Source: Verrucomicrobiota bacterium (GTDB taxonomy: Bacteria; Verrucomicrobiota; Verrucomicrobiia; JADLBR01). Taken from it: a stretch of 35,683 nt of DNA. A program made the position numbers and the translations under genes. The notes beneath the pieces were generated by a model. That model was not told the origin of the DNA, did no database searches, and worked only from the letters and a program-made list of their open reading frames with translations. The stretch covers positions 1-35,683 of the forward strand of contig JAKQKQ010000108.1 of NCBI GenBank assembly GCA_029560585.1, in the 5' to 3' direction. Of the stretch, positions 1-35,683 are shown piece after piece; position 1 is the stretch's first letter; each line of letters starts with the position of its first letter.

Positions 1-147
1 CCCAACAATCAATGCCCATCTGATGATAGAGGGGACTTCCAATGGTGTGCGGCGCGCGACAATGCACGGCATCTCACAGAGATGCCCTACAAAATTTGTA
101 GGCCGCCTGTGCCAGGCGGCTCGGCTCAGAGGTTTTGAGACACGCTC
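1..147 (+). repeat. Family B triple-hairpin repeat, copy 1
   Basis: This 147-bp unit recurs at 8623-8769 with only three differences that I can count, and its last 105 bp recur inverted at 35537-35641 with no difference. It contains three back-to-back perfect hairpins: GGCATCTC/GAGATGCC (68-86), CTACAAA/TTTGTAG (87-101) and GCCGCCTG/CAGGCGGC (102-120). The motif GTTTTGAGACA follows at 132-142. It lies downstream of the minus-strand methyltransferase and starts at or before the window edge. No protein-coding role is likely. Confidence 0.9.
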
Positions 148-191
148 AGGCCGCGGGCCCTCCCGGCGGAATCGGACCACGTGCGCCTTCA
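148..191 (-). repeat. Fragment of composite intergenic repeat at a stop codon
   Basis: The segment CCCGGCGGAATCGG with CACGTGCGCC matches the distal part of the composite repeats at 8838-8868 and 14258-14290. The stretch AGGCCGCGGGCCCTC is the reverse complement of a module at 8572-8587. The TGA stop of the neighbouring methyltransferase (189-191) lies inside this repeat, at the same place as the stop of the methyltransferase at 8866. The GGACGCC hairpin of the other copies is missing here. Confidence 0.7.
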
Positions 192-2743: not shown

Positions 2744-2770
2744 GGATGAACTCCGATTAACACAGATTGG
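2738..2770. repeat. Family A repeat arm, left border of the GxxExxY unit
   Basis: The arm starts CACCACGGATGAACTCCGAT and continues to CACAGATTGG. It is the inverted partner of the arm at 3236-3265, matching at 24 of 29 positions by my alignment. The same kind of arms close a hairpin with only a 22-nt loop at 11476-11555. Here the space between the arms holds a gene. Confidence 0.8.
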
Positions 2771-2832
2771 TTTCTGATTCCAATGCCCGGATTTTTGGTG
2801 GCCATAACGTGCGCGTCGCCTACTCCTCTGTC

Positions 2833-3216
2833 ATGGATAGGGAATATCAGAGATTAATGTTGGCGGAGTATACGGGCGCAATCATCGGGTCTGCCATGGA
2901 AGTCCTGAACCATCTCGGGAATGGGCTGGCCGAAAAACCCTATGAGAATGCGCTCGTTGTTGAATTTGGGCTCAGGGACATTGCCGTCGATCAGCAGCCC
3001 CGTTTTGATGTTCAATACAAGGGACGGCTCGTGGGTGAGTTCATTCCGGACTTGATTGCGTTCGGGCGAATCGTTGTGGACACAAAGGTCATTGAGCGAA
3101 TCACGGATCAGGAACTAGGCCAGATGATGAACTATCTCCGCATCACACAACTCAATCTTGGTGTGATTCTAAACTTCAAACGCCCTCGTCTGGAGTGGAA
3201 GCGGGTCGTGCTATAG
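2833..3216 (+). CDS. GxxExxY family protein (PD-(D/E)XK nuclease-like fold)
   Basis: From the ATG at 2833 the product has 127 residues, normal for the family. It carries the defining motif as GLAEKPY (31-37), with D73 and D83-T-K85 in the region that matches the core of PD-(D/E)XK nucleases, then QMMNYLR (97-103) and the typical ending VILNFKRPRLEWKRVVL. The usual ExK is DTK here, so activity is uncertain. The frame stays open back to a TTG at 2767, but that part lacks family similarity. The gene lies opposite to the operon around it, has visibly lower GC (about 52% in one 60-base line I counted) and is bracketed by inverted family A repeat arms. This suggests an inserted, possibly mobile unit. 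No biochemical role is established to my knowledge. Confidence 0.85.
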   Translation: MDREYQRLMLAEYTGAIIGSAMEVLNHLGNGLAEKPYENALVVEFGLRDIAVDQQPRFDVQYKGRLVGEFIPDLIAFGRIVVDTKVIERITDQELGQMMNYLRITQLNLGVILNFKRPRLEWKRVVL

Positions 3217-3235
3217 ACCGCGATCCCTCCCGGAT

Positions 3236-3281
3236 ATCCGTGTCCATCCGCGTTCATCCGTGGTTGAAGCAATCCGTGGTT
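3236..3281. repeat. Family A repeat arm, right border of the GxxExxY unit
   Basis: Three 10-bp units ATCCGTGTCC, ATCCGCGTTC and ATCCGTGGTT (3236-3265) are followed by a short extra AATCCGTGGTT (3271-3281). The last base abuts the TGA stop of the minus-strand permease gene (3282-3284). It pairs in inverted orientation with 2738-2770. Confidence 0.8.
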
Positions 3282-4169: not shown

Positions 4170-4230
4170 GCTACCTCACCTCAAATCATGACGATGGCGC
4201 CGCCGCCTTGCCTGTGCCGGACCAACGGCC

Positions 4231-4309
4231 AAAGCGGCGCGTTTGCGCGCCGCACTCCAAAAATTCCTGGCTCTCGCGCCTTGGAGTGCGGCGGCAAGGC
4301 CGCCGCTTT
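4231..4309. repeat. Family D nested hairpin repeat
   Basis: The left half AAAGCGGCGCG-TTTG-CGCGCCGC is itself a hairpin and continues into ACTCCAA (4231-4260). The right half TTGGAGTGCGGCGG-CAAGG-CCGCCGC continues to TTT (4281-4309) and is its inverted partner. The result is a hairpin of hairpins. A related, more degraded unit lies at 29010-29148. Confidence 0.8.
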
Positions 4310-4313
4310 CCGC

Positions 4314-4333
4314 GGACGGCGGAGCCGGCGTCC
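4314..4333 (-). repeat. Family C GGACGCC hairpin (variant)
   Basis: GGACGGCG/CGGCGTCC around GAGC is a one-mismatch version of the hairpin at 8817, 14239, 29782 and 35468. It is followed on the plus strand by CTCCC as in those copies. Read from the upstream minus-strand glycosyltransferase gene, it has the same orientation as every other copy. The motif GTTTTGAGACA of family B lies nearby at 4379-4389. Confidence 0.65.
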
Positions 4334-4430
4334 CTCCCAAGTGATACTGAGACGCCAGCGTGGAGGCGATGATCTGGCGTTTTGAGACAGGCTCCGGCTT
4401 CGGCATTCGATGACCTTCTTCAACGGCCGA

Positions 4431-5633: not shown

Positions 5634-5662
5634 CGGACCCCTCACTCACGAACCGGACAATC

Positions 5663-5777
5663 AACCACGAAGAACACGAAGGCCACGAAGATCGGCACCC
5701 GCTACGCATTCGTGTTCATCCGTGTCCATTCGTGGTTCTTTCCCACACCCTCCGTGCGCTTCGTGCCCTTCGTGGTT
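5663..5777. repeat. Family A hairpin repeat, chimeric 9-bp/10-bp arms
   Basis: The left arm (5663-5692) has CACGAAG units at a 9-bp period. The right arm (5708-5737) has the 10-bp type, ATTCGTGTTC, ATCCGTGTCC, ATTCGTGGTT, after a 15-nt loop. A further right arm of the 9-bp type follows at 5750-5777. The unit occupies nearly the whole gap between rfbB and the glycosyltransferase gene, and its end is 7 bp from the rfbB stop. Confidence 0.85.
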
Positions 5778-5784
5778 CCATGGT

Positions 5785-8512: not shown

Positions 8513-8601
8513 GGCGTCTCACGGAGACGCCATCTGCACGATCTCAGACACGCCATGCGAGCATCCTGAGGAGGGCCCGCGGCCTGAGGCTGTCTCAAAA
8601 C
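8513..8601. repeat. Composite repeat modules upstream of the membrane glycosyltransferase
   Basis: The hairpin GGCGTCTC-ACG-GAGACGCC (8513-8531) is a sequence variant of the first hairpin of family B. It continues through a block ending GGAGGGCCCGCGG (8570-8582) that is also present at 14136-14193. Next comes CTGAGGCTGTCTCAAAAC (8584-8601), found again at 14061-14078. At 14.1 kb the two blocks occur in the opposite order. Confidence 0.75.
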
Positions 8602-8622
8602 TCAAACTCCCAACACGGAACA

Positions 8623-8769
8623 CCCAACAATCAATGCCCATCTGATGGTAGAGGGGACGTCCAATGGTGTGCCGCGCGCGACAATGCACGGCATCTCACA
8701 GAGATGCCCTACAAAATTTGTAGGCCGCCTGTGCCAGGCGGCTCGGCTCAGAGGTTTTGAGACACGCTC
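8623..8769 (+). repeat. Family B triple-hairpin repeat, copy 2
   Basis: This copy matches positions 1-147 with three substitutions. All three hairpins and the GTTTTGAGACA motif (8754-8764) are intact. It lies in the 424-bp gap between two genes of the polysaccharide operon, embedded among other repeat modules. Confidence 0.9.
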
Positions 8770-8775
8770 GCCTCG

Positions 8776-8913
8776 CGGGCCGGGTTGGCCCAGATGTCTG
8801 GCGGCTGGTGAGTCGCGGACGCCGGGGCCGGCGTCCCTCCCGGAGGAATCGGGCCACGTGCGCCATCAGGGGGCATCTCTGACGTCTTTTGACGGGCTGC
8901 TAACCCGCGCCAC
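8776..8913 (-). repeat. Composite repeat module with family C hairpin at a gene end
   Basis: The block runs from GGGCCGGGTTGGCCCAG through GGTGAGTCGC, the hairpin GGACGCCGGGGCCGGCGTCC (8817-8836), CCCGGAGGAATCGGGCCACG and GCCATCAGGGGG to GGGCTGCTAA. The same order occurs at 14197-14313. The last part overlaps the coding end of the methyltransferase at 8866, whose final residues and stop codon are therefore repeat-derived. Confidence 0.8.
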
Positions 8914-11475: not shown

Positions 11476-11592
11476 ACCACGGATGGACACGGATCAACAC
11501 GGATCGAGATATCCCACAAAAGCCATATCCGTGTTCATCCGTGTCCATCCGTGGTTGAATCGCTCCCTTCGTGGCCTTCGTGTCTTCGTGGT
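11476..11592. repeat. Family A hairpin repeat, 10-bp period, nearly perfect
   Basis: The left arm ACCACGGATGGACACGGATC... (11476-11504) and the right arm ATCCGTGTTCATCCGTGTCC... (11527-11555) form a 29-bp stem with one mismatch around a 22-nt loop. A third arm of the 9-bp type (CTTCGTG units) follows at 11565-11592. A lone AACCACGAATC lies at 11440-11450 just upstream of the next gene. The set fills the 168-bp gap between the two epimerase genes. Confidence 0.92.
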
Positions 11593-11599
11593 GCCCAAA

Positions 11600-12673: not shown

Positions 12674-12693
12674 ATTCAGGGTGACCGTACATC

Positions 12694-12774
12694 AACCACG
12701 AAGGGCACGAAGATCACGAAGTCCATTGAGGTTCGTTTTCGGCGTCCTTCGTATGCTTCGTGCCCTTCGTGGTT
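12694..12774. repeat. Family A hairpin repeat, 9-bp period
   Basis: The left arm AACCACGAAGGGCACGAAGA... (12694-12721) and the right arm CCTTCGTATGCTTCGTGCCC... (12746-12774) are inverted partners around a 24-nt loop. Read as codons, the left arm would encode NHEGHEDHE, a common spurious peptide. It lies between the NusG-like gene and the first biosynthetic gene. Confidence 0.9.
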
Positions 12775-12817
12775 TCAATGAGGGCGTCTTTCGTCAGAGC
12801 ACACTCCGTGCCGGTCA

Positions 12818-14060: not shown

Positions 14061-14313
14061 CTGAGGCTGTCTCAAAACAAGAGCGCTCCATGGGCCTGGA
14101 TCCTTCGAGGGACGTGCCGACTTGGTCAACTGACGGAGACGCCCCGCAAGATCTTGGGGATGCCATGCGGGCATCCTGGGGAGGGCCCGCGGCTTCGAGG
14201 GCCGGGTTGGCCCAGGTGTCGTGTGGCTGGTGAATCGCGGACGCCGGGGCCGGCGTCCCTCCCGGCGGAATCGGGCCACGCACGCCATCAGGGGGTTTTT
14301 CCGCGGGCTGCTA
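14061..14313 (-). repeat. Composite repeat with family C hairpin, downstream of the epsI-like gene
   Basis: The block contains CTGAGGCTGTCTCAAAAC (14061-14078), a module with GGAGACGCC...GGAGGGCCCGCGG (14136-14193) and GGGCCGGGTTGGCCCAG. The hairpin GGACGCCGGGGCCGGCGTCC (14239-14258) and the CCCGGCGGAATCGGGCC...GGGCTGCTAA tail follow. The same modules occur at 8513-8913, partly in a different order. The stop codon of the epsI-like gene (14311-14313) sits at the conserved GCTAA edge. The rest of the 380-bp gap holds the hairpin at 13982 and the regulator promoter. Confidence 0.8.
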
Positions 14314-14991
14314 AGGTTTTGCGTCAGGGATAACGCGGAGCCAGCGGGGAATGAAGGCTTGGATGGCGGCGTCGGCGGCCTCTACGGAGGGATGGATCGG
14401 GGTGGTGACGAGGATGTAGCACTGCTCGCGGCGCCGGTCGGTGCGAAGCCTGAAGTTGAGCGCGAGACGGGTGAGGATGCCCCTGCCGACCTCCAGCGTC
14501 GTGGATCCGCCGAGCAGATGCACGAAATAGACAAGCATCTCGGAGCCACCGGTCCGATAGAGGCGCCGGCCGAAAGGGACCTCGCGCTCCCCGACCCGCA
14601 GCGTCTGCTCGCGAATCTCTGTGGGGAGCGGCTCCGCCCCGGACGCCGTGAAACAGACATCGGGGGTGTGGGGCCCATACGACAGGTCGGCGCCCTTGCC
14701 GGTTTCCCATTTTGCGAAAAAGACACCGATGACGCGCCCGTCCGGGGCGATCGCGCTGCCGTTCTGAATCTCGGATTGCCCGTACTGCTGGCGCGCGCCA
14801 TCGGACACAGGCTCGTCGCGCCATTCGTAGCCGCCGATCGCTCGCGAGGCCGACACGTCCCACGTCTCGCCACCCCGGGAAAACAGGTTGAACACCCATA
14901 GCGGCGAGGTCACTGCCGCCACCAGGGCCAACGTCAGCACGAGGGCCACCGCTGCAGGAAAACGCCAAGGCCCATCCCCGCCACCGCTCAT
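14311..14991 (-). CDS. epsI: Exosortase-associated protein, EpsI family
   Basis: The 226-residue protein has one N-terminal membrane helix (about 11-34) and a periplasmic domain with HTPDVCFTASG (about 107-117), matching the HxPxxC signature of EpsI-like proteins that accompany exosortases. Further typical segments are LVYFVHLLGGSTT and a C-terminal amphipathic part. EpsI domains occur free or fused to exosortases and are thought to work in polysaccharide export or sorting, though the precise activity is not established. Its ATG overlaps the exosortase stop as ATGA, so the two are coupled. The stop codon lies at the edge of a composite repeat. Confidence 0.86.
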   Translation of the reverse strand: MSGGGDGPWRFPAAVALVLTLALVAAVTSPLWVFNLFSRGGETWDVSASRAIGGYEWRDEPVSDGARQQYGQSEIQNGSAIAPDGRVIGVFFAKWETGKGADLSYGPHTPDVCFTASGAEPLPTEIREQTLRVGEREVPFGRRLYRTGGSEMLVYFVHLLGGSTTLEVGRGILTRLALNFRLRTDRRREQCYILVTTPIHPSVEAADAAIQAFIPRWLRVIPDAKP

Positions 14992-28010: not shown

Positions 28011-28985
28011 TTGAAGATCCTGGTCACCGGAGCCGCCGGATTCATCGGCAGCACCCTCGCGGGGGCCCTGCTCGGCCGCGGCGACGAGGTCGTGGGCCTC
28101 GACAACTTCAACGACTACTACAGCCCCGCGCGCAAGCGCGCCAACATCGCCCCGCTCCTCCGGAACCCGCGCTTCCGCCTCATCGAGGGCGATTTCTCCG
28201 ACCCCGCCATCGCCCGCGATGCGGTCGCATGGAAACCCGCCGCCATCGCCCACATCGGCGCCATGGGGAGCGTCCGCTATTCGGTCAAGAATCCCGCGCT
28301 CTTCGTCCAGGTCAACATCGTCGGCACCGCGAACCTCCTCGAGGCCGCGCGCCTGGCGGGCGTGCCGCACTTCGTGTTCGCCTCCACCTCCTCCGTCTAC
28401 GGGCAGACCGACAAGATCCCCTTTGTCGAAGGCGACCCCACCGACCGACCGCTCGCGCCCTACCCCGCATCGAAGAAGGCCGGCGAGATCATGGGGTACG
28501 CCTACCACAACATGCACGGCATGTCCTTCACCGCCCTGCGCTTCTTCAACGTGTACGGCCCCAAGGGCCGACCCGACATGATGCCCTACATCGTCACCGA
28601 CAGCCTCGTTCACGGCAAGGAGATCACCCTCTTCGACGCCGGCGCCATGCGCCGCGACTGGACCTTCGTCGGCGATATCCTCGAGGGCGTCATCGCCGCC
28701 ATCGATAAACCCCTCGGCTACGAGATCATCAACCTCGGTCGCGGCGAACCCATCGACATGAATGCGTTCGTCCACATCGCCGAGGAGATCGCCGACAAGA
28801 AGGCCATCATCCGCGTCGCGCCCGCCCCCGCCAGCGAGCCGAAGGTCACTTTCGCCAACGTCGACAAGGCACGCCGCCTCCTCGCTTATAACCCCCGCGT
28901 CTCCGTGCGTGAGGGCCTCGCCCGCTTCTGGGAATGGTATACGAAAGAGGCGATGGCACCGCCCGCGACCGCATCGACGGACTAG
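28011..28985 (+). CDS. UDP-glucuronate 4-epimerase-like SDR
   Basis: The 324-residue extended SDR has TGAAGFIGSTLAGALL (6-21) and GLDNFNDYYSPARKRANIAPLL, a mark of UDP-glucuronate/UDP-glucose epimerases of the LpsL/CapI type. GSVRYSVKNP, STSSVYG, YPASKKAGE (Tyr-Lys pair) and RFFNVYGPKGRPDM follow, with the ending FWEWYTKE. It would convert UDP-glucuronate to UDP-galacturonate for surface polysaccharide. The start is TTG at 28011, preceded by GGAG at 8 nt, and the frame is open back to 27963. It is followed by a repeat-rich gap rather than by other sugar genes. Confidence 0.87.
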   Translation: MKILVTGAAGFIGSTLAGALLGRGDEVVGLDNFNDYYSPARKRANIAPLLRNPRFRLIEGDFSDPAIARDAVAWKPAAIAHIGAMGSVRYSVKNPALFVQVNIVGTANLLEAARLAGVPHFVFASTSSVYGQTDKIPFVEGDPTDRPLAPYPASKKAGEIMGYAYHNMHGMSFTALRFFNVYGPKGRPDMMPYIVTDSLVHGKEITLFDAGAMRRDWTFVGDILEGVIAAIDKPLGYEIINLGRGEPIDMNAFVHIAEEIADKKAIIRVAPAPASEPKVTFANVDKARRLLAYNPRVSVREGLARFWEWYTKEAMAPPATASTD

Positions 28986-29246
28986 CTCGGAAATTCCGTT
29001 TGCTCGCAAAAAGCGGCCCGTGGACGGTCCGCACTCCAAGGACCTTCGGCCGAAATCCGGCGGCATCTTGGGACGATGTCGGCACCCCGTGACAATGCCC
29101 CGTTTCGCGCGCAGCGCCGTGGACTGCGGTGCGTCCTCGCACCGCTTTGCACCGCAAGAGGACCAGGCATTTTCAGCCCCGGTGGTGCCCCGCCGCGCGC
29201 CGGCGGCGGGGCTAACTCGAGAATTCCGTTTGCTCGCCAAAGCGGC
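28983..29246. repeat. Direct repeats and family D nested hairpins in a 398-bp gap
   Basis: A 34-35 nt direct repeat containing AATTCCGTTTGCTCGC occurs at 28983-29017 and 29213-29246, differing at a few positions. Between them lie GCGGCCCG-TGGA-CGGTCCGC followed by ACTCCAAG (29013-29040) and GGACT followed by GCGGTGCG-TCCT-CGCACCGC (29121-29145). These are inverted versions of the family D unit at 4231-4309. The stop codon of the epimerase (28983-28985) overlaps the first direct repeat. Nothing gene-like was seen in the gap up to 29383. Confidence 0.7.
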
Positions 29247-29383: not shown

Positions 29384-29776
29384 ATGTCAAAAGACCCCTT
29401 CTCCGATGCCTACCGACGTGGCATCGAGCTATTCAATCGCGGCGAGTACTTTGACGCCCACGAGGTCTGGGAGGACCCTTGGCGCGGCACCCAGGGGGAT
29501 GATCGCCTGTTCTATCAGGGCCTCATCCAGGCGGCCGTGGCGCTGGAACATCTCTGTCGCGGCAATCGGCGGAGCGCCGCAACCGTCTGGCGCAACTGTC
29601 GCCCCAAGCTCGTCGCGCTGCCCGTCCATTTCATGGGCATGGATCTCCGGAGCTTCGTCGCCGCCATGGAGGTCGCGCTCCAGCCGGCGCTCGCGCCCGG
29701 AGCCGGGGCCGCCGCGTTCGACCGATCATCGGCGCCCATCATCCGCATCGATTCGTCGCATCAGGGCCCACAGTGA
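29384..29776 (+). CDS. DUF309 family protein
   Basis: From the ATG at 29384 the protein has 130 residues and the DUF309 signature: YRRGIELFNRGEYFDAHEVWEDPWRG (about 9-34), DRLFYQGLIQAAVALEHLCRGNRRSA (about 39-64). The conserved His-Glu and Trp residues suggest a small helical, possibly metal-binding protein. The biochemical function of DUF309 is unknown to me. The frame stays open to 29345 without support. Its TGA lies within the family C hairpin repeat shared with the converging methyltransferase. Confidence 0.85.
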   Translation: MSKDPFSDAYRRGIELFNRGEYFDAHEVWEDPWRGTQGDDRLFYQGLIQAAVALEHLCRGNRRSAATVWRNCRPKLVALPVHFMGMDLRSFVAAMEVALQPALAPGAGAAAFDRSSAPIIRIDSSHQGPQ

Positions 29777-29806
29777 ATCGCGGACGCCGGGGACGGCGTC
29801 CCTCAC
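29774..29806 (-). repeat. Minimal family C hairpin between two convergent stop codons
   Basis: TGAATCGC and the hairpin GGACGCCGGGGACGGCGTCC (29782-29801) with CTCAC occupy the whole space between DUF309 (stop 29774-29776) and the methyltransferase (stop 29803-29805). Both stop codons are part of the repeat; GTGAATCGCGGACGCC is identical at 14230-14244. It may also act as a bidirectional terminator, although no T-run is present. Confidence 0.85.
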
Positions 29807-35433: not shown

Positions 35434-35467
35434 CACCGCCCCACACCATCCGCGCTGGGCATGGGAG

Positions 35468-35487
35468 GGACGCCGGCCCCGGCGTCC
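35468..35487 (+). repeat. Family C GGACGCC hairpin downstream of ribF
   Basis: GGACGCCGGCCCCGGCGTCC is preceded by GGGA and followed by GCG, the reverse of the copies at 8817 and 14239. Here the upstream gene is on the plus strand, so relative to its gene the orientation is the same as all other copies. Confidence 0.8.
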
Positions 35488-35523
35488 GCGTCCCACCGGG
35501 TAGCGAAAGGCACCTGTCATGCG

Positions 35524-35641
35524 CGGCCCGCGAGGCGAGCGTGTCTCAAAACCTCTGAGCCGAGCCGCCTGGCACAGGCGGCCTACAAATTTTGTAGGGC
35601 ATCTCTGTGAGATGCCGTGCATTGTCGCGCGCCGCACACCA
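35524..35641 (-). repeat. Family B triple-hairpin repeat, copy 3 (inverted)
   Basis: Positions 35537-35641 are the reverse complement of the last 105 bp of copy 1 with no difference that I see. The flank CGAGGCGAGC also matches copy 2 beyond the shared 147 bp. All three hairpins are intact, and the TGTCTCAAAAC motif lies at 35542-35552. The right-hand remainder to 35683 has GGACTGCGGTGGCAGAGTCC, a short inverted repeat similar to family D. Confidence 0.88.
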
Positions 35642-35683
35642 GGCCGGGAGGGTTTCGGACTGCGGTGGCAGAGTCCGGCAACG

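Follow-up and report, generated by a model that had tools for sequence, protein, structure and literature searches.

We describe a 184-bp non-coding element, here called MITE-A, whose 16-bp terminal inverted repeats (GAGNNTGTCTCAAAAC; general form GAG(GC|CG)TGTCTCAAAAC) abut, at nearly every site read in the genome of a Verrucomicrobiota bacterium, the loop of one of two short G+C-rich hairpins. The loop is duplicated at the insertion and both arms of the stem are kept. With its inverted termini, target duplications, short length, many copies and lack of a transposase gene, the repeat is a miniature inverted-repeat transposable element (MITE). It is probably a non-autonomous transposon that is moved in trans by an IS1182-type transposase and inserts at the tips of hairpin loops carried by sibling MITEs.

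The window analyzed is an entire contig (C247, 35,683 nucleotides) from a 7.06-Mb draft genome of 336 contigs. A sequence-only reading of it had reported three copies of a triple-hairpin block of 105 or 147 bp, differing from one another at no more than three positions, and direct alignment bears out both their coordinates and their similarity: there are three mismatches between 1-147 and 8623-8769, none between 43-147 and the reverse complement of 35537-35641, and one between 8665-8769 and the latter. The boundaries of the block were drawn too narrow, as alignment with copies from other contigs extends the unit to 184 bp, complete only in the second copy of the window (table 1). The three local copies are real, but the total is far above three. 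The triple-hairpin core occurs 63 times in the genome at up to three mismatches (control, 0) and the exact terminus GAGNNTGTCTCAAAAC 116 times (reversed-pattern control, 0), while a genome search scored at least 40 near-identical matches to the repeat out of 164 candidates; the assembly breaks at these repeats, so all such counts are minimum values, and the assembly could lack a full autonomous partner. Full copies are approximately 93–99% identical to the consensus, suggesting a fairly recent spread, as the sequence-only reading had supposed; the gene conversion that it offered as an alternative is not needed to account for their similarity.

Table 1. Features related to MITE-A in the window
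Feature	Position	Strand	Details
MITE-A copy 1	1-147	+	Element positions 38-184 (the contig start cuts off the 5' part); 100% to consensus; terminal repeat 132-147
Triple-hairpin core of copy 1	68-120	+	
AGGC-CGCGGGCC (H1 loop and arm) after copy 1	148-159	+	
Right end of sibling MITE-B	4311-4394	+	Matches MITE-B 128-211 at 94%; inverted terminus 4379-4394
H1 left arm and loop copy, left duplicate at copy 2	8574-8585	+	Arm GGCCCGCG 8574-8581; loop copy GCCT 8582-8585
MITE-A copy 2, full 184 bp	8586-8769	+	Termini 8586-8601 and 8754-8769 intact; 98% to consensus
Triple-hairpin core of copy 2	8690-8742	+	DNA fold -20.1 kcal/mol, z -7.0
H1 loop copy and right arm, right duplicate at copy 2	8770-8781	+	Loop copy GCCT 8770-8773; arm CGCGGGCC
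H2, GGACGCCG-GGGC-CGGCGTCC, unoccupied	8817-8836	+	
Terminus of another sibling MITE carrying the H1/H2 pair	14063-14078	+	
Empty site, paralogue of 8536-8873 without MITE-A	14146-14295	+	H1 14184-14203; H2 14239-14258
Isolated H2-type hairpin fragment	29773-29804	+	MITE-B 122-153, 97%
H1/H2 palindrome unit beside copy 3	35462-35536	-	H1 arm and loop GGCCCGCG-AGGC at 35525-35536
MITE-A copy 3, truncated	35537-35641	-	Element positions 80-184; 100% identity; terminus 35537-35552; core 35564-35616

Flanks were read from sequence stretches picked around the termini, which are therefore not a random sample of the genome. Identical 4-bp target duplications enclose 28 of the 42 full MITE-A copies with both flanks read, the duplicated sequence being AGGC/GCCT in 26 of them, GCCC in one and AGAC/GTCT in another, and the two variants match on both sides of their inserts. 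Nineteen of these 28 insertions are in one orientation and nine in the other. The other 14 full copies are without identical duplications; several look recombinant and some have mixed flanks, with H1 on one side and H2 on the other. These few copies with mismatched flanks suggest that some recombination has taken place.

The main target, H1 (GGCCCGCG-GCCT-CGCGGGCC), is a hairpin with an 8-bp stem and a 4-nt loop, and H2 (GGACGCCG-GGGC-CGGCGTCC) is a second G+C-rich hairpin. The 4-nt loop of one or the other is abutted by 91 of 95 MITE-A termini (85 at H1, six at H2 and four at neither) and by 134 of the 155 termini found when those of any sibling are included. Where the flanks of an insert are the two arms of H1, pairing between them stands at 93–100% over the eight positions counted from the loop and falls to 4% at the ninth, so that the duplicated 4 bp are the loop itself.

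Sites that have remained empty tell the same story. The filled site at 8536-8873 and its paralogue at 14146-14295 differ in length by 188 bp, that is, by 184 plus 4, and after removal of the 184 bp and one 4-bp duplicate they are identical at 132 of 150 positions. Beyond the H1/H2 unit, both loci (8842-8903 and 14264-14315) have a module that ends in a different IS1182-like terminus (..TTTTGACGGGCTGCTAA / ..TTTTTCCGCGGGCTGCTAA). A total of 1.34 Mb of DNA, sampled around termini and hence non-randomly, yielded 29 uninterrupted H1/H2 units, and every H1 with perfect arms in this sample has a loop of exactly 4 nt, loop lengths of 0-12 having been allowed. Perfect H1 hairpins number 70 in the genome itself (control, 0) and 38 in a sister species, G001 (control, 2). 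In the latter the pair was uninterrupted in all 20 loci read, either by itself or as part of an element whose ends (AGCAGCCTGTTGAA...) differ from those of MITE-A yet are IS1182-like too, and the exact terminus GAGNCTGTCTCAAAAC is absent from that species. Since H1 and H2 are intact there, these hairpins probably predate the expansion of MITE-A. The empty H1/H2 unit was also folded as a single DNA strand; the best fold does not contain two separate hairpins, and for this reason we argue for hairpin formation from the exactness of the palindromes.

The target hairpins are themselves part of mobile elements. MITE-B (GAGTCTGTCTCAAAACGTTATTGTCCCG...GTTTTGAGACAGGCTC), a second element that shares the MITE-A termini, carries the H1/H2 pair, which is also found within further siblings with the same termini and other interiors; consequently, the copies are nested. 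At two loci MITE-A sits in the H1 loop of an otherwise complete MITE-B, and a copy of the loop stands on either side of it (L093, 9877-10315; L101, 12670-13065), and two triple stacks (L188 and L069) consist of a MITE-B within the H2 loop of another MITE-B and a variant of MITE-A inside that.

As had been noticed from the sequence, each copy of MITE-A contains three adjacent perfect hairpins, GGCATCTC-ACA-GAGATGCC, CTACAAAATTTGTAG and GCCGCCTG-TGC-CAGGCGGC in the core of copy 2, and folding predicts precisely this structure. The 53-bp cassette also occurs outside MITE-A ends, for example just after genes (L097, 4594-4647; L091, 7748-7800), and once in G001. The triple hairpin is most simply seen as a REP-like passenger, with a role in transcription ends or in the folding of the transposon ends being possible.

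Several unrelated repeats share the window and the genome. A separate family (CCTTCGTG..CTTCGTG..TTCGTGGTTC) has imperfect inverted copies at 1770-1855, 3226-3275, 5660-5780, 11525-11595 and 12689-12777, one of which adjoins a PDDEXK_3 gene (2767-3216). Fragments of further dispersed palindromic families lie at 4220-4310 (TTGGAGTGCGGCGGCAAGGCCGCCGC) and 35645-35683 (GGACTGCGGTGGCAGAGTCCGG), the second being frequent in the sampled genome, and two 33-bp direct repeats (GGACTAGCTCGGAAATTCCGTTTGCTCGCAAAA) occupy 28979-29241 with a start-to-start spacing of 230 bp. In 1.07 Mb sampled from the same genome we also found a hairpin family resembling Pseudomonas REPs (TAGGAGCCTGCTTGCAGGCGATTCG) and a CTAGCC(T/C)G(C/G)ATATTTCAC hairpin element. 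The six genes for REP-associated tyrosine transposases (RAYT; Y1_Tnp) of this genome (L134-L139) are mostly flanked by inverted repeats of the GGGGTCA.. type.

The open reading frames of the window and a scan of 10 of its proteins agree with the earlier statement that no transposase is encoded there, and the proposal that a factor encoded elsewhere disperses the repeat gains support from the genome-wide copies, inverted termini, 4-bp duplications and empty sites. A search of 141 genomes of the class located exact GAGNCTGTCTCAAAAC only in the genome studied here and in two others, G015 and G039. In these, an IS1182-type ORF begins 55 bp inward of GAGACTGTCTCAAAAC at five of five sites in G039 and at two of seven in G015; only the starts of the ORFs are seen, as the contigs end inside the insertion sequences (IS). 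Compared with a full-length IS1182 transposase (L140), such an ORF start has approximately 58% identity (437 bits). Short elements without an ORF between termini of this kind are also present in G015 (L248, L256).

The outer flanks of the insertions in G039 and G015, mostly read at one end per insertion, again consist of an arm plus 4 nt: CCCGGCGT-TGAA, CCCGGCGT-TAAA, CCCCGGGC-GCAA and CCCACGGC-TTGC. Intact hairpins of the CCCGGCGT, CCCCGGGC and CCCACGGC types are present in these genomes, and in the DNA read from them none was found for the flanks CCCACGGT-GTAA, CCCGCCAG-TTCA, ACCGCGGT-TGCA and GGAGGGAC-GAAA. That the arms differ while the geometry stays the same is our main reason for favoring shape over sequence in target choice, and is no more than suggestive.

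The IS1182-type elements of the genome itself end in GAG(T/A)CTGTCGAAAAAC, with a best match to the MITE-A terminus of 14 of 16 positions, and no IS1182 gene with exactly the MITE-A terminus was found in the draft assembly. Draft bins often lose elements that are present in many copies, and this absence is accordingly weak evidence. The DDE_Tnp_1 genes of the genome were considered as movers; they are IS1634-, IS5- and IS1182-like, and none has exactly the MITE-A terminus. Relatives in other genomes (56 loci) of the IS1182 element on contig C233 were likewise rejected as direct movers, having related termini, GAGNCTGT(C/A)GAAAAAC, and mostly a GTT duplication. The target duplications of the better-matched IS1182 elements of the genome, and of elements related to them, seem to be 3 bp long and to lie at other sites, which indicates that target choice varies within the family. 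Many of the C233 relatives in unrelated bacteria (L190-L231) have the termini GAGNCTGT(C/A)GAAAAACC and have duplicated GTT at sites of the type ...CGTT|GTTAGGC, which resemble the core site of integron attC hairpins.

The full sequence of MITE-A was sought in genomes of the same genus and class, where the only match was to part of the hairpins, in G001. The exact core had no match in a collection of 84,980 genomes (from which the genome studied may have been left out), a 160-bp block had none in a plasmid collection, and the left end had none among viral contigs.

The scheme that best accounts for these observations is as follows. MITE-A is one of several sibling MITEs with the common terminus GAGNNTGTCTCAAAAC, and an IS1182-type DDE transposase acting in trans would excise it and insert it at the tip of a G+C-rich hairpin whose stem is short (8 bp in H1) and whose loop measures 4 nt. 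Were joining staggered between the two edges of the loop, nothing but the loop would be copied, and this would account for the 4-bp target duplication. As H1 and H2 sit on sibling MITEs, the elements nest in one another and seldom land in genes, a habit from which they may benefit. The three internal hairpins may represent a REP/BIME-like cassette captured by a MITE.

With regard to the recognition step alone, the transposase might read H1 and H2 as DNA sequence, the palindrome being incidental as it is for many site-selective insertion sequences. The targets in the genome are indeed nearly all one hairpin sequence, H1 accounting for 85 of the 95 MITE-A termini, but H2 loops are used as well, and elements with the same terminus in G039 and G015 abut other arms with the same geometry of arm plus 4 nt. 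We regard sequence recognition as a possibility to be taken seriously, although a doubtful one. Recognition by shape is, for us, plausible if still short of probable: IS1182-type transposases with the MITE-A terminus would pick short G+C-rich stems that end in 4-nt loops, with joining on either side of the loop, and MITEs that carry such hairpins would supply new landing sites, forming a self-supplying nest that largely spares genes.

Alternatively, copies could be moved and homogenized, with no active transposition, by recombination between homologous mosaic repeats of the kind known from neisserial genomes (intergenic mosaic elements). Such recombination would suit the modular layout, in which different interiors share the same termini, and the mixed H1/H2 flanks of some full copies. 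It does not, however, make insertion footprints such as matched loop duplications (GCCC/GCCC, GTCT/GTCT) and precise empty sites, and the 28 copies flanked by duplications already contradict it, which renders it quite unlikely as a general account. The repeat is also palindromic, intergenic and multicopy, its cassette is found without MITE ends, and the genome has six Y1_Tnp genes, all of which could point to a REP/BIME element moved by a RAYT. Nevertheless, 16-bp inverted termini and 4-bp duplications are features of DDE transposition, and none of the six RAYT loci has MITE-A hairpins or termini in the flanks read, bar one H2-like match at the edge of L139; for MITE-A this origin is very unlikely, though it may apply to the free cassette. 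Finally, local duplication, to which absence of the repeat outside this locus would have pointed, is refuted by copies on dozens of contigs revealed by the whole-genome search that the earlier reading had called for. A structured RNA gene family kept by selection could be seen in the pairing retained at a few positions, as in the A-T to G-C change compensated at one pair in nine of 32 distinct cassettes. Even so, covariation is weak, since pairs changed on both sides (three) are no more frequent than in shuffles (246/500), and the window has no Rfam match at gathering scores. We consider local duplication or an RNA family highly improbable.

The proposed transposition of MITE-A into hairpin tips is best compared with that of IS1272, a member of the IS1182 family that uses inverted repeats as targets and replaces them on insertion (PMC5678879). 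As a possible pathway, the model proposed for IS1272 further depicts joining at the loop 5' ends, which would duplicate nothing but the loop (PMC5678879), and the MITE-A data match this pathway. Both elements have terminal inverted repeats of approximately 16 bp, and IS1272, with its DDE transposase, is directed to stem-loops; but whereas IS1272 replaces the stem-loop and makes no duplication, MITE-A keeps the stem, duplicates the 4-nt loop and has no transposase of its own. ISPsy8, ISRm22, IS1397 and ISPpu9/10, which target REPs, have a fixed insertion point in a palindromic repeat, at the symmetry axis in the first two, and some copies of REP-targeting elements have unequal duplications, explained by recombination (PMC1525189). 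MITE-A resembles them in inserting at a fixed point of a repeated palindrome (91/95 termini). They are, however, autonomous elements of the IS3, IS110, IS4, IS256 and IS5 families, and MITE-A is a MITE with IS1182-type ends whose target lies on its siblings. It is similar to bacterial MITEs in being short, non-coding and numerous, with terminal inverted repeats and target duplications, and unlike others in its REP-like triple-hairpin cassette and in landing on its siblings. Neisserial intergenic mosaic elements and BIMEs are mosaic intergenic units with common short borders and variable interiors; here, by contrast, what the units have in common are the ends of a transposon, with target duplications beside them. 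MITEs are already known, as are insertion sequences that target REPs and the preference of IS1182 elements for palindromes. The duplication of the loop alone, together with siblings that carry the landing hairpin, seems to represent a new variant.

MITE-A offers a natural data set for loop-only duplication, which had been drawn as possible for IS1272 and has no documented case in the literature searched. Whether the shape of a DNA hairpin guides a DDE transposase thereby becomes a directly testable question. For the bacterium itself, our data portray a genome whose non-coding mobile elements act as landing sites for one another, which would explain dense mosaics of intergenic palindromes and the breaks that these cause in draft assemblies.
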